This document shows, piece after piece, positions 1-62,257 of a stretch of DNA of 64,000 nt (position 1 is the stretch's first letter; each line of letters begins with the position of its first letter). The position numbers and the translations under genes were made by a program. A model generated the notes under the pieces. The model saw only the letters and a program-made list of their open reading frames with translations, did no database searches and was not told where the DNA came from. The stretch comes from a virus, in the IMG/VR virus record IMGVR_UViG_3300050119_000091, positions 1-64,000 of that record; one strand, 5' to 3'.

Positions 1-77
1 TGGTGGCCGGATGGCTGGCGCGTTCCTGATTGGTTTTCAGGTTGGTCAGTCGCCGCGCTTCACTTCGTTACGCTGTA

Positions 78-135
78 TGGAACCGCTTCCATTTTCATGT
101 GGTATCGGTACCATAGTTTAGTGGAACCGCTTCCA
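78..135. promoter_or_regulatory. Two copies of a palindromic operator-like site
   Basis: The 14-bp sequence TGGAACCGCTTCCA occurs at 78-91 and 122-135. It is an inverted repeat (TGGAA/TTCCA around CCGC), and a GGTA/TACC dyad lies between the copies at about 101-112. TTGACA follows at 139-144. On the other strand the site reads TGGAAGCGGTTCCA, which resembles LacI/GalR-family operators. No protein-coding gene is visible in 1-177. The repressor role is inferred. Confidence 0.5.
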
Positions 136-177: not shown

Positions 178-825
178 TTACGCAAATAGGCTTATCTGCG
201 TTACTCGCTTGCGCGAACCGGCAGATTCCGCCAAGTACGCCTCAAGGCCACGGTATTGCTTGCCGCCAACATCCCGCATCCATCCGGTCCCGTCGCAACT
301 CTCGGCCCCTGCGTCGTCGCACTTCCATAGATGGCGATACGTATTCACCCGGCCCACGTGGACGCGCTCAAACTCTCCGCACCACATGGGAACCGTTTTC
401 CACTTCCAGTCGGTAGAACCGCCGACAAATACCACGTCGGCATCGCCCGGAACGTCAATTGATGTCATGCCGTCTTGAGCGGCAAAGGCAAGAGGCCACC
501 CGTAGCGCCTCAGAATCGGTGCGTAGCGCGTCCACTTGGCCAGCGTGCCATCTCGGTCCCCGACAACATCCGGCACGAGCGCCCACAGCGGATTCTGCCC
601 GCTGAGTTTCGCCCATTCCAACATGCGCATCCACTCATCCTCTGACCATTTATCTCCGGCGGCGAAAGCTCCGTTGTCCAGCGCAAAGCGAAACTCCAGG
701 AAAGTAAATGGCCCAGGTGGATTTCGCTTGACTTGCGGAGAGTGCAGGTGTCCTATCTTGCCCGGATAACGGCCCGCCAAGTAGCCAGTCTTAATCCCGG
801 TCGTGTTGGCCAGCATGATCCTCAT
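178..825 (-). CDS. dpdA: DpdA-like / tRNA-guanine transglycosylase-fold protein
   Basis: A 215-residue protein of the small phage TGT-like family. Recognisable motifs are LDNGAF (49-54), PDVVGD (85-90), QDG (117-119), FVGGSTDWK (133-141), HVGRVN (156-161) and DGT (178-180). Related DpdA enzymes exchange guanine in DNA for a 7-deazaguanine base such as preQ0, protecting phage DNA from restriction; that function here is inferred from the family. The start overlaps the stop of the upstream queD remnant (ATGA, 822-825), so the two were translated as a unit. Other preQ0 genes are not in the window, so the base would have to come from the host or from genes outside it. It could instead be a TGT-fold protein of other function. 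Confidence 0.75.
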   Translation of the reverse strand: MRIMLANTTGIKTGYLAGRYPGKIGHLHSPQVKRNPPGPFTFLEFRFALDNGAFAAGDKWSEDEWMRMLEWAKLSGQNPLWALVPDVVGDRDGTLAKWTRYAPILRRYGWPLAFAAQDGMTSIDVPGDADVVFVGGSTDWKWKTVPMWCGEFERVHVGRVNTYRHLWKCDDAGAESCDGTGWMRDVGGKQYRGLEAYLAESAGSRKRVTQISLFA

Positions 826-1045
826 TTGACGCGTATCACGACGCCGCAGTGCTCGGTTTCCCGAAGCTCGACCCCGGACACCCCGCGCACGGAATTAAAC
901 ATACGGTCGAATATCATCTCAGCCACCCGCTCACACGTGGAGTTTTCCAGACCACGAATCTCGTTGATTTGCACTTGTGGCCATCTGGGACGTTAGGCAA
1001 CCAGTGGGCGGAATCAAAACTATCCTCAATGAAAATGGTCGTCAT
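822..1045 (-). pseudogene. queD: 6-carboxytetrahydropterin synthase (QueD) remnant, internally deleted
   Basis: The frame opening at 1045 gives a QueD N-terminus (FDSAHWLP, then DGHKC) but stops at 914 after 43 residues. From about 987 to 822 another frame reads INEIRGLENSTCERVAEMI and then VELRETEHCGVV, a clear QueD C-terminus. The two halves meet near 985-990. About half of the usual ~120 residues, including the zinc-binding HGH region, is missing and the frame is shifted. QueD makes the pterin precursor of preQ0/queuosine. The intact stop still overlaps the start of the DpdA-like gene. The loss looks recent because both ends are well preserved. Confidence 0.8.
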
Positions 1046-9429: not shown

Positions 9430-10195
9430 TGTGTTTTTCCCCTTTTGATTGGTTGCACCGACCGCATAGCGGCTGGATGTTGTCTATATTGTTCGATCCT
9501 CCCATTATGAGAGGAATTACGTGGTCCACCGTGAGCCTAATATCCGGCTCTTTCTTGCCGCACCTTAGACACATAAACCCCGCCGCCATCTTCAATGAAT
9601 CCCACTCATGCCTTGTGTACGCTCCGCCATTCGCCAGTTTCCTAGCCCTCCGAGCGTGAACGTAAGACAATGCCTTGTCGCGATTTTCTTTAAACCACCT
9701 CCGCACCATAGCGTTATGCTTCTCTGGATTTGCGGCGTACAACTCCCGGCTCTTTCGGTTGATGGCATCTCTATTTGCTTCGGCGTAGCGTGCCCACGTT
9801 TCCTTAAATCGCCCCGGGAACTTCTCTCGGCTCTCTTTTTGGCGATTAAGAATGGCCTCTTTGTGCGATTCGTAGTGCCTCTTTTGGTGGGCTGAGAATC
9901 GGGATGGGTTTAGTTTTCGAGCCGCCTTGACCCTATCGGACAGTTCTTTCTTGTGGATTTTCTGATACCTACCCCGGATTGCTTTGGTGGCGTCAGGATG
10001 GTCGCGCCTCCACTGCGCCGAGTAGGCCATGTGCTTTTCTTTATTGTTCTCGTAGTAAAGCCTCTTATCCTGATTGGTACACGAACGGCACTGCGGGAAT
10101 TTTCCGTCGTGACGTGACCTGTCGTTATGGAAGTTGTCTAACGGTTGAGGTGTAGAGCATTTTGAGCACGTTTTTAGGGTTGCGCTGTCAACCAT
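9410..10195 (-). CDS. HNH endonuclease (free-standing homing type)
   Basis: 261 residues. The N-terminal zinc ribbon has CSKC (10-13) and CRSC (about 36-39), a long Arg/Lys/Glu helical middle follows, and the C-terminal HNH has CLRC, TVDHVIPL, GGSNNIDNIQPLCGRCN. GGAGG lies seven bases before the ATG. Both ends overlap neighbours: 22 bases with the helicase and 20 with the methyltransferase. This is how mobile HNH genes are often wedged between phage genes. Confidence 0.85.
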   Translation of the reverse strand: MVDSATLKTCSKCSTPQPLDNFHNDRSRHDGKFPQCRSCTNQDKRLYYENNKEKHMAYSAQWRRDHPDATKAIRGRYQKIHKKELSDRVKAARKLNPSRFSAHQKRHYESHKEAILNRQKESREKFPGRFKETWARYAEANRDAINRKSRELYAANPEKHNAMVRRWFKENRDKALSYVHARRARKLANGGAYTRHEWDSLKMAAGFMCLRCGKKEPDIRLTVDHVIPLIMGGSNNIDNIQPLCGRCNQSKGEKHIDYRTH

Positions 10196-12162
10196 ACAGG
10201 CACCTCCATCGGCATTTGATGATCGTAGTTTGCGGATTTATTTGCGCGTTGCGCCAACTGCTCGACCCGCATAGCCAGCGACATTTCCCGCTGCAATTCT
10301 TCGTATGCCGCTTCTTTTTCGCGAATCGCGCTCATGATCGCGCCTTCGGTTTCGGCCATGATGATATGGGCGTTGACCGCGCGGACCTGCCCGAAGCGCC
10401 AGCACCGACGGATAGCTTGGAACATAGACTCGAAGGAATAATTCATTCCCACGAAGATCATATTGCGGCAATGCTGGAAATTTAAGCCCCATCCGGCTAC
10501 AGATGGCTTTGTCAGCAGAATCGGCCTGTCACCACGAAGCCATGCCACGATTCTTCGTTCTTTTTCGTCCGGCGACATGCTCCCGTCAATCGAGATACAG
10601 TCATCGCCGAGTGCCTTACGCATCGGCTCCTGCTCGTAGTTTGTGTTGCACCAAATGATCCAACTTTCCCTCAAGGTAGGCGATTGTTCTGCGCAGCAGG
10701 GCGACGTCGTTTTTGAATTTTCCGATCCCCATATTGCAGTTGGAGCATAGTATGCCTCTGAGCTTTCCCGTTGCGTGGCAATGGTCGATGTGCGGGAAGA
10801 TTCGAGGATTTCCGATGTCTGAAAATCCGCAGATTGCACATTTTCTTCCGTGGGCGTCAAACCATTCACTGAATAACTCGACGGTAAGTCCGTATTGTCT
10901 GAGGTCTTGGTTTTTTGCTTTTGTTGGGTTGTTTTTCGCCCATTCCTTGACTTTGGATTTGTGTGACTCACGATAGTCTGCGTCAGATCGGTATCTATCC
11001 CTTCTTGCAGCGTTAATTCTGGCTCGTTGTTCAGGTGTTCGCTTGCCCCATTTGGCCTCTTTGTTTTTTGCGTAGTACTCCCGCATGTAGATCCTGTTTT
11101 CTTCTGGGGTTCTGGCGTTTTTCTCCCAATTGGCCCGTAGTCGGGCGGCGTATTCTGGGTCGCTGGTAAATTTTCGGCGTCGATTCTCTTCGTATTCTCT
11201 TTTCCAGTTTGACATTCTGACAGTTTAACACTATTGGAGATTGAGTCCAAAATTAGACTAGCGGCCTTCTGTATCCTATCCGTGGCCGTCAGCCGCAATT
11301 CTTTATGCAGCCCGGTGGCGCTCATGTCGGGGCACCTGAACAGCATTCCTTCTGTGTTTACGGAATGATCCACAGCGACGATATGCTCCTGAAGATTGAG
11401 CGGCGGCAGCACATAGGCGCTGTCATTGTAGGGGCCGATGTCGGACGGCTTACTGACGCACACGCAGAACTGAGACAGAAACTCGAAGAACGGTTTCTTG
11501 CCGTGGCCCTTCAGCGACCACTTGGAAGTCTGTCCGCCGTTGTGTTCAAAAAACATAGCCAGCATTTGCGTTCGGCTCATCACATCCAGAAGCTCCGCGT
11601 GCGTCCCAAGCTCCGCGTGTTCGTTTGGAGAAGGAGTGGCACTGGAACACAACTTGAATCGAGTTTTTGAAAGTCGCTCAATGAGTCCCTGAAACAGTTT
11701 CGAGTTGAAGTCCTTGATACACGAGGATTCATCGAGAGAAATACCCGCGAACCGTGACAGGTCCAGATTGTCAAGGCTGTCGTAGTTGGTGACGTTGATG
11801 CCGTATTTCACGTCCGAGTCTTTCCGGCAGAGTGTCACCTGAATTCCAAACTTATCCGCTTCGCGCATGAACTGCTGTGCGACCGCTAGCGGGGCCGCAA
11901 TCAGGCAATCTCCGCCAGTGTGGATACAGACGTGACGACACCACTCAAGTTGTATCGGCCCTTTGCCAAGTCCCGTATTCGCAAACACTGCCGCTTTGCC
12001 GCGCTTGCAGGCCCACTGCACGATATCGGCCTGGAACTCGTGCTTCGGGTCCAGCATCATCGGATTAATGTCCAACCGCTTGATATCGAACCCGCACGGA
12101 TTCGCGAAGATTCTCTTTGTTGCCAGGAACTCTTCGTATGTAGATGTCAAAATATTCCCCAT
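10174..12162 (-). CDS. SNF2/DEAD-like helicase with an insertion that encodes an HNH gene
   Basis: 662 residues from the ATG at 12162. Motif I is ANTGLGKG at 61-68 (the usual GKT/S is GKG) and motif II is LDESSCIK. The C-terminal half has WIIWCNTNYEQ, ISIDGSMSPDEKERRI and FQAIRRCWRFGQ (motif VI), as in phage helicases next to modification genes. Between about residues 305 and 498 lies a Ser/Thr/Asn/Gln-rich, low-complexity stretch with no helicase motif; these bases encode the HNH protein at 10616-11215 in another frame. Whether the helicase works with this insertion is open. The frame upstream of 12162 shadows the MTase gene. Confidence 0.75.
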   Translation of the reverse strand: MGNILTSTYEEFLATKRIFANPCGFDIKRLDINPMMLDPKHEFQADIVQWACKRGKAAVFANTGLGKGPIQLEWCRHVCIHTGGDCLIAAPLAVAQQFMREADKFGIQVTLCRKDSDVKYGINVTNYDSLDNLDLSRFAGISLDESSCIKDFNSKLFQGLIERLSKTRFKLCSSATPSPNEHAELGTHAELLDVMSRTQMLAMFFEHNGGQTSKWSLKGHGKKPFFEFLSQFCVCVSKPSDIGPYNDSAYVLPPLNLQEHIVAVDHSVNTEGMLFRCPDMSATGLHKELRLTATDRIQKAASLILDSISNSVKLSECQTGKENTKRIDAENLPATQNTPPDYGPIGRKTPEPQKKTGSTCGSTTQKTKRPNGASEHLNNEPELTLQEGIDTDLTQTIVSHTNPKSRNGRKTTQQKQKTKTSDNTDLPSSYSVNGLTPTEENVQSADFQTSEILESSRTSTIATQRESSEAYYAPTAIWGSENSKTTSPCCAEQSPTLRESWIIWCNTNYEQEPMRKALGDDCISIDGSMSPDEKERRIVAWLRGDRPILLTKPSVAGWGLNFQHCRNMIFVGMNYSFESMFQAIRRCWRFGQVRAVNAHIIMAETEGAIMSAIREKEAAYEELQREMSLAMRVEQLAQRANKSANYDHQMPMEVPVWLTAQP
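10616..11215 (-). CDS. Endonuclease VII-like HNH nuclease nested in the helicase gene
   Basis: 199 residues. Repeated RxxYRSDADYRESHK-like helices precede a recombination-endonuclease-VII domain: KCAICGFSD, FPHIDHCHATGKLRGILC, CNMGIGKF. It lies wholly inside the helicase gene in a different frame, and its last 17 residues are read from helicase-coding bases. TTGGAC and TAAACT spaced by 17 lie just before the ATG, six bases from it, with no Shine-Dalgarno, so a leaderless start is plausible. Homing nucleases usually split or flank genes; nesting with both frames open is unusual. Confidence 0.8.
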   Translation of the reverse strand: MSNWKREYEENRRRKFTSDPEYAARLRANWEKNARTPEENRIYMREYYAKNKEAKWGKRTPEQRARINAARRDRYRSDADYRESHKSKVKEWAKNNPTKAKNQDLRQYGLTVELFSEWFDAHGRKCAICGFSDIGNPRIFPHIDHCHATGKLRGILCSNCNMGIGKFKNDVALLRRTIAYLEGKLDHLVQHKLRAGADA

Positions 12163-12836
12163 TGATCCGCCATTGCGCTTGCGATTCCAGTGTAAGTACG
12201 GCTCCGCATTTTTGCCCTGTCCGGTCCGGGCGGCATGTGATGTATTCGGTTCCACTGATCGAGTTGAGCGCCCCTCAGTACGCGCGTAGTGCGCCCGGTG
12301 AGGAAATGGGTGGGGTTGTCGCGCTTGCCTTTGGCGCTCATGTGGATACTGCCATCCGCGCGTACCGCCCATTCCGGAACTACAATATCGGACGGCTCTA
12401 ACTTCGGCAGATTAGTGAGCCACAGGCATGTTGTCTTTGTCTCGCCGTGACCGTGATGCCATGGTTGAATAATCTGATCCGGCCGGCGGATTCTGGAACT
12501 TATTATGGAAACAGGGTTCTCTATTGCAATGCGAGGAATCGGAGTGGCCATCAATGCGCGTACGAAATCCAGCGCAGCGCCCTGCTCTCCGCTGGCTACT
12601 TTTTCTTTGAACCACCGCGCGCCAGACACAGACAGATGCGTACATGGCGGATGCGCGATCATCAAATCCCATCGTGAATCTTCACGCAATAATGTGAGTA
12701 CGTCGTAGTGTATGTGACGCCCCGGAACGCTCGACAATGACGGCAACAGGTCGCAACTAAAGGCATCGTGGCCGCGCGCCAGAAATGCATCCCTCACTAC
12801 TCCGGATTCTTCGCAGGCAATAAGTACGCGCATCAT
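12147..12836 (-). CDS. C5-cytosine methyltransferase-like phage protein
   Basis: 229 residues. VLIACEESG with RDAFLARGHDAFSCDLLP is the SAM-binding start, and AHPPCTHLSVSG (61-72) carries the Pro-Cys motif IV with the nucleophilic Cys65. RIAIENP matches motif VI (ENV/ENP), and RSRTYTGIASAMADQWG is the usual phage ending. The protein is shorter than restriction-linked C5 enzymes. It probably methylates phage DNA. Its stop overlaps the helicase start by 16 bases. Confidence 0.75.
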   Translation of the reverse strand: MMRVLIACEESGVVRDAFLARGHDAFSCDLLPSLSSVPGRHIHYDVLTLLREDSRWDLMIAHPPCTHLSVSGARWFKEKVASGEQGAALDFVRALMATPIPRIAIENPVSIISSRIRRPDQIIQPWHHGHGETKTTCLWLTNLPKLEPSDIVVPEWAVRADGSIHMSAKGKRDNPTHFLTGRTTRVLRGAQLDQWNRIHHMPPGPDRAKMRSRTYTGIASAMADQWGIF

Positions 12837-61339: not shown

Positions 61340-62257
61340 TCAGGCAACCTCTACGAATTCGCCGTTGTTGTTAAGGCGGTATTTTACGTTCGGCTTGAGT
61401 TGCCCGTCGCCGTCTTCGTCCTGGACTGAAGCGAAGCGTGTTTTGTATCGCTTGCCGTTCCATTGCAGGATTACCAGGTTACCGCCGTAGCCAGCCGTCG
61501 CAGTCCCGCTATCGCCAGCCGTCGCAGTCCCGCGATGGCCAGCCGTCGCAGTCCCGCTATCGCCAGCCGTCGCAGTCCCGCCGTAGCCAGCCGTCGCAGT
61601 CCCGCCGTAGCCAGCCGTCGCAGTCCCGCGAACGCCAGCCGTCGCAGTCCCGCTATCGCCAGCCGTCGCAGTCCCGCGATGGCCAGCCGTCGCAGTCCCG
61701 CGAACGCCAGCCGTCGCAGTCCCGCTATCGCCAGCCGTCGCAGTCCCGCTATCGCCAGCCGTCGCAGTCCCGCGAACGCCAGCCGTCGCAGTCCCGCTAT
61801 CGCCAGCCGTCGCAGTCCCGCGAACGCCACCCGTCGCAGTCCCGCTATCGCCAGCCGTCGCAGTCCCGCGAACGCCAGCCGTCGCAGTCCCGCTATCGCC
61901 AGCCGTCGCAGTCCCGCTGATTACGCGCTTGCCGAATCCGCCATTATCGACCACGTATTTCCCAGCGGCCATACGATCACCACAAAACACCACGTCGCCA
62001 GATGGAAATTTGACCTTGCCGCTAAGGTCAATCAGCATGGCCTCATCGACCGAAACGACCAGCCATTTCGCGCCTTCGGAGAAATCCCCAAGCGATGCGT
62101 CTCCCTCGCCCCAAAGCCATCCATGCAGGCCACTGCCACACGCCTGCGTGGGCTTCCAGTCGGAGCATGAGATCGGCCCGGATTCAGGCCATTTGAACTG
62201 GCCGTGATAACTGGTCATGTCGGCGGCGCATGACCGCAACACCAATACACTAGCCAT
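61340..62257 (-). CDS. DUF7666-like protein with 18 eight-residue repeats
   Basis: 305 residues from the ATG at 62257. The N-terminal domain (SYHGQFKWPESGP, WKPTQACGSGLHGWLWG, WLVVSVDEA) matches a phage family. Then 18 units of GTATAGxx follow (two variable residues: DS, VR, HR, YG), ending with GNLVILQWNGKRYKTRF. The array resembles a beta-solenoid. Similar repeats are known in phage proteins; function unknown. Confidence 0.75.
   Translation of the reverse strand: MASVLVLRSCAADMTSYHGQFKWPESGPISCSDWKPTQACGSGLHGWLWGEGDASLGDFSEGAKWLVVSVDEAMLIDLSGKVKFPSGDVVFCGDRMAAGKYVVDNGGFGKRVISGTATAGDSGTATAGVRGTATAGDSGTATGGVRGTATAGDSGTATAGVRGTATAGDSGTATAGDSGTATAGVRGTATAGHRGTATAGDSGTATAGVRGTATAGYGGTATAGYGGTATAGDSGTATAGHRGTATAGDSGTATAGYGGNLVILQWNGKRYKTRFASVQDEDGDGQLKPNVKYRLNNNGEFVEVA
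61484..61915 (-). repeat. 24-bp tandem repeat, 18 units
   Basis: 432 bp = 18 x 24 bp, no interruption. Order of the variable pair along the protein: DS VR DS VR DS VR DS DS VR HR DS VR YG YG DS HR DS YG. Unit 4 has GTATGG. The near-identity of units means copy number could change readily by slippage or recombination. Confidence 0.9.

Follow-up and report, generated by a model that had tools for sequence, protein, structure and literature searches.

The DpdA protein of Enterobacteria phage 9g, acting alone, puts dPreQ0 into the plasmid DNA of E. coli that makes preQ0 (PMC6884629). The same 2019 survey describes 76 phages with DpdA and no preQ0 genes, for which host preQ0 or uptake was suggested, names YhhQ as a preQ0 transporter, and leaves undecided whether host preQ0 is used for DNA modification by phages that have dpdA but no such genes (PMC6884629). 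The window analyzed here comprises bases 1-64,000 of a 66,779-base virus record (IMG/VR IMGVR_UViG_3300050119_000091), which is not closed and may be incomplete, and carries near its start a short DpdA-like gene with the remains of queD directly upstream:

178..825, (-) strand: short DpdA-like protein of predicted TGT fold, 215 aa (ORF, PHROG 15826, AlphaFold2 model and PDB fold match, invariant residues)
822..825, (-) strand: ATGA overlap of the queD stop and the dpdA start (sequence)
822..968, (-) strand: queD remnant, C-terminal 48 codons plus stop, in the other frame (Pfam PTPS positions 68-119, alignment)
969..970, (-) strand: deletion junction, two leftover nucleotides between the frames of the N-terminal and C-terminal parts (alignment to the QueDs of L020 and L035)
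971..1045, (-) strand: queD remnant, N-terminal 25 codons, as far as GHKC (translation, alignment to the intact QueDs of relatives)

On balance, it seems probable that this locus encodes a short enzyme of the tRNA-guanine transglycosylase (TGT) type that swaps guanine in the phage DNA for a host-made 7-deazaguanine as a protection against restriction, and that the queD gene beside it was broken by a deletion of ~135 nt.

The original prediction of a TGT-fold gene rested on the LDNGAF, PDVVGD and FVGGSTDWK motifs, and all three are found in the translation of the 215-aa ORF at 178-825 (-). The protein belongs to PHROG 15826 ("unknown function", E=2.9e-31) and matches no model in Pfam or NCBIfam. 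Its AlphaFold2 model, for which 44 aligned sequences served as input, has a mean pLDDT of 90.6 and a pTM of 0.88; a Foldseek search of the PDB returned TGT in 50 of the 50 matches listed (best E 3.7e-6), and VIA-align matched the model to TGT with Z 14.7 (204 aligned residues, rmsd 3.3 A), both of which place it among the TIM barrels of the TGT type and not in another fold, the outcome that would have contradicted the prediction. Among viral structures, the best matches are several phage proteins annotated as queuine tRNA-ribosyltransferase and many unnamed ones. This kinship is visible by structure search only, since a search of PDB sequences with the profile of the short family found no relative and hhalign could not align the family sensibly with the TGT of E. 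coli. The product of 178-825 is, as modelled, a compact TGT-type member of a short DpdA-like phage family. Its proposed kinship to phage DpdA is supported by hhalign of the family profile against four proteins of the DpdA1 type (9g and relatives), a modest match of E=4e-5 and 70% probability over the 108 columns of the LDxGAF-to-GG core; moreover, in a full-length profile run with weaker scores, ESCDGTGW pairs with YSCDSSSW and LDNGAF with LDSGAF.

The residues D50, N51, G52, P85, D86, Q117, G135, G136, H156 and D178 are invariant in the phage and plasmid members aligned, and D50 (LDNGAF) and D178 (CDGTGW), also conserved in phage and plasmid relatives, are invariant in 44 family members. The protein thus has the two catalytic aspartates of the TGT/DpdA superfamily, with D50 as presumed general base and D178 as presumed nucleophile, roles assigned by motif and not by superposition; in the profile alignment they are paired with D72 and D215 of 9g. 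By motif again, and not from superposed coordinates, we take D50, N51, D86, Q117, G135-G136 and D178 to be equivalent to D102, S103, D156, Q203, G229-G230 and D280 of the Zymomonas TGT, which presumably form the base pocket and the nucleophile. DpdA1 proteins (9g type) are marked by a conserved histidine at 9g position 196 that is absent from DpdA2; H156 is invariant in the short family, yet it is not placed on 9g H196 by the weaker-scoring full-length profile alignment.

Upstream of this gene, positions 1045-971 (-) translate to MTTIFIEDSFDSAHWLPNVPDGHKC, the N-terminus of QueD, which aligns with the intact QueDs adjoining dpdA in relatives, and positions 968-822 (-) translate to INEIRGLENSTCERVAEMIFDRMF...VELRETEHCGVVIRVK, the C-terminus, which matches Pfam PTPS with E=9e-4, narrowly missing the gathering cut-off, and with E=4e-4 in a search of the record itself. 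The remnant therefore resembles QueD (6-carboxytetrahydropterin synthase, PF01242) at both ends, but lacks its center and is shifted in frame. The alignment of QueD homologues of relatives, proposed in the original prediction to map the deletion, places the junction at 969-970 and shows ~133-136 nt to be missing, that is, 45-46 codons of ~118-125; since the net loss is 1 mod 3, the frame is shifted. Thus, the predicted deletion and frameshift are both present and the ATGA overlap with dpdA is indeed kept (825-822), whereas the loss was overstated as roughly half of the protein, being a bit above one third. The deleted segment contains the LHGHxY and DH motifs, where QueD has residues for zinc binding and catalysis; of these residues, the first His and the Cys are all that is left. 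A functional QueD made by frameshift translation can be ruled out, as a change of frame would not restore the metal-binding and catalytic segment, which is missing altogether. Judged from its sequence, the queD at 822-1045 is an inactivated pseudogene, and its destruction was perhaps recent, since both remnants are stop-free in their own frames, a weak indication over just 73 codons.

The short family comprises at least 80 relatives in IMG/VR and 24 phage-collection records, several of them annotated as 'DpdA-like tRNA-guanine transglycosylase'. The IMG/VR relatives are mostly 45-56% identical to the window protein, the nearest only 56%. In Escherichia phage phiG7, the short homologue (L084:5938-6530) is split over two overlapping ORFs (phiG7_20 and _21) and apparently frameshifted, with a longer DpdA-type gene intact. 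Two dpdA spans derived by tblastn, L022:5466-6101 and L027:5251-5877, have an in-frame stop near the C-terminus, which may be a truncation, a sequencing error or the true end read through.

The association of the short family with preQ0 genes, also foreseen in the original prediction, is seen in the presence of QueD at 46 of the 80 IMG/VR loci; in 28 it lies within ~250 nt of dpdA, mostly downstream, and the upstream position found in the window recurs in L006 and L057. On the tree, the distribution of queD requires 13 changes, with 8 or more forced by supported branches, a count inflated by contigs cut near dpdA (e.g., L011), and for this reason the comparison was limited to the 55 loci where dpdA has 1.5 kb or more of flank on either side; queD is present in 30 of them and absent in 25. 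Moreover, the dpdA proteins of L033, without queD, and L022, with it, are 96% identical. To judge from these sequences, queD beside the short dpdA is repeatedly gained or lost.

The two ends of the contig are exact inverted repeats of each other over 127 nt (window 1-127 and record 66378-66779; L083), and the last 400 nt of the record duplicate two further segments of its end region, of 127 and 149 nt; these repeat ends look like k=127 assembly-graph ends and not biology. Elsewhere in the window, a 24-bp tandem repeat of ~18 copies (61490-61918) lies within an ORF matching PHROG 18079, and a helicase-like ORF (10174-12372) overlaps by ~600 nt, on the same strand and in another frame, an ORF at 10616-11215 that reads like an HNH endonuclease and is possibly an inserted homing endonuclease.

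The queD deletion might have arisen in assembly, or might be carried by only a minority of a population in which queD is otherwise whole and paired normally with dpdA. In favor of such an error or variant, exact 127-nt repeats terminate the contig less than 1 kb away, as happens when an assembly graph is tangled, and no second IMG/VR record has the remnant DNA to confirm the deletion (an exact 29-mer of the N-terminal part is present in no other IMG/VR record). However, ~840 nt separate the junction from the repeat end, and an assembler of the de Bruijn kind, as suggested by the 127-nt repeat length, requires real k-mers over the junction. In addition, since 25 of the 55 long-flank relatives are without queD, its loss is ordinary in the short-dpdA family, and an artefact appears unlikely. 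The broken queD could also mean that the dpdA-like gene is itself decaying or idle and that nothing is modified, and the apparently frameshifted copy of phiG7 would agree with such a course. This is quite unlikely for the window gene, whose ORF is full length and whose product, at the positions where 90% or more of the relatives agree, deviates at residue 5 only, besides insertions at 38-42 (five residues) and 186 (one); furthermore, a short dpdA is often found intact where queD is missing, as the same 25 loci attest. A real deletion beside an intact dpdA is thus the preferred reading.

With the adjoining precursor gene wrecked, any modification by the window phage would need a host-supplied precursor. 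The original prediction had also allowed for distant preQ0 genes and proposed a search for queC, queE and folE, and this part found no support: the 66.8-kb record, not closed and perhaps incomplete, has no over-cut-off match to PF01242, PF06508, PF04055 or PF01227, and no second QueD and no QueC, radical SAM protein, FolE or YhhQ was found in it, so that the set of FolE, QueD, QueE and QueC expected of an own preQ0 pathway is lacking there. Among 43 relative records searched whole, QueD was detected in 23, QueC in 10, a radical SAM hit in 6 and FolE in 2, and six QueD-bearing records of 39-61 kb are without QueC, radical SAM or FolE; Sonali carries folE, queC, queD and queE. Thus, the former 7-deazaguanine path ascribed to the phage can be traced in its inactivated queD and, since relatives mostly carry queD alone, is unsupported beyond that gene. 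Because QueD so outnumbers the other genes and stands alone in those six records, queD next to the short dpdA would rather seem to boost the host pathway, with host dependence as the usual state, and this dependence is probably older than the deletion. A chromosome scan for the host gave nine contigs, from MAGs or genomes of several phyla, and pointed to no single host.

In three isolates, a membrane protein of the Vut_1 family (PF02592; E 1.4e-9 to 2.5e-12), which we take to be the YhhQ family, is encoded near the short dpdA, either adjoining it or one gene off:

L097:7345-7878: Vut_1/YhhQ-type gene of ReqiPine5 (gp04)
L100:7355-7885: Vut_1/YhhQ-type gene of StevieRay (53)
L101:7086-7613: Vut_1/YhhQ-type gene of Aoka (38)

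These neighbors suggest precursor uptake as a substitute for queD; in the window record and the 43 relatives, a YhhQ transporter was sought and none was found.

The short family also occurs on plasmids, where tblastn found it in 176-182 records, 141-146 of them from Pseudomonas; among the matches listed, many exceed 300 kb and nearly all are annotated as hypothetical. Examples are:

L103:5839-6729: plasmid homologue of the short DpdA
L105:5836-6714: plasmid homologue of the short DpdA
L106:5827-6693: plasmid homologue of the short DpdA
L107:3743-4606: plasmid homologue of the short DpdA

Three aligned copies from Pseudomonas and Burkholderia plasmids have an N-terminal extension (~290 aa) and retain the invariant residues. 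No que gene is annotated around the homologue in the six plasmid stretches read, whose gene tables are incomplete, and a literature search of partial coverage found no published description of the plasmid copies. Since large plasmids carry the short enzyme as well, phages may not be the only elements to use this strategy.

The nearest solved fold being a tRNA-guanine transglycosylase, the short protein might act on tRNA or another RNA in a takeover of host translation, and a second, longer gene of the DpdA/TGT type is carried by Sonali (annotated queuine tRNA-ribosyltransferase) and by phiG7 and R29Z (9g-type DpdA), which means that the short form may have a separate task. However, TGT is ~375 aa long and grips tRNA by its C-terminal zinc-binding region, for which the 215-aa protein has no room, as it ends soon after the nucleophile motif, and an occurrence on both plasmids and phages suits DNA protection better; an RNA target is accordingly improbable.

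With DNA as the preferred substrate, the 178-825 enzyme would exchange guanine in the phage DNA for a 7-deazaguanine through the double-displacement reaction of TGT, the base being host-made and most likely preQ0, if the host supplies it, and the modified DNA would be hidden from host restriction. The adjacent queD would formerly have raised the flux into the host preQ0 pathway, until a ~135-nt out-of-frame internal deletion took its zinc and catalytic residues and turned it into a pseudogene, which would leave dpdA intact and reliant on host preQ0. With less confidence, and only tentatively, the family may be seen as a minimal DpdA, in phages slightly more than half as long as TGT, that edits the DNA of mobile elements with host preQ0 in many phage hosts and on large plasmids, queD alone serving as an on/off booster, repeatedly gained and lost and here caught mid-loss.

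In comparison with known systems, the window protein shares the fold (Z 14.7) and the pocket motifs of bacterial and archaeal TGT, but has only ~10% sequence identity to them and is without the C-terminal zinc region. Like the DpdA of phage 9g, it is TGT-related, and the LDxGAF and CDxxxW motifs of both align; however, the 9g protein has 316 aa against 215 here, the short form lacks its long C-terminal region, and sequence search alone does not reach 9g DpdA from the short form, while phage 9g has folE, queD, queE and gat-queC (PMC6884629). The 'DpdA-like tRNA-guanine transglycosylases' of cluster-P-type mycobacteriophages (StevieRay) and of Arthrobacter phages Sonali and Aoka belong to the same short family and have the same invariant residues at ~30% identity to the window protein, and in StevieRay and Aoka a YhhQ-type transporter adjoins the short dpdA where the window has queD. 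An intact dpdA beside a queD fossil, together with near-twin relatives with and without queD, makes the question left by the 2019 survey testable. With its dpdA and no detected preQ0 genes, the locus fits the published class of dpdA-only phages (group 3), for which use of host preQ0 was suggested (PMC6884629), and differs from them in keeping an attached queD fossil and in its distinct, short DpdA subfamily, thereby showing a possible route into that class.
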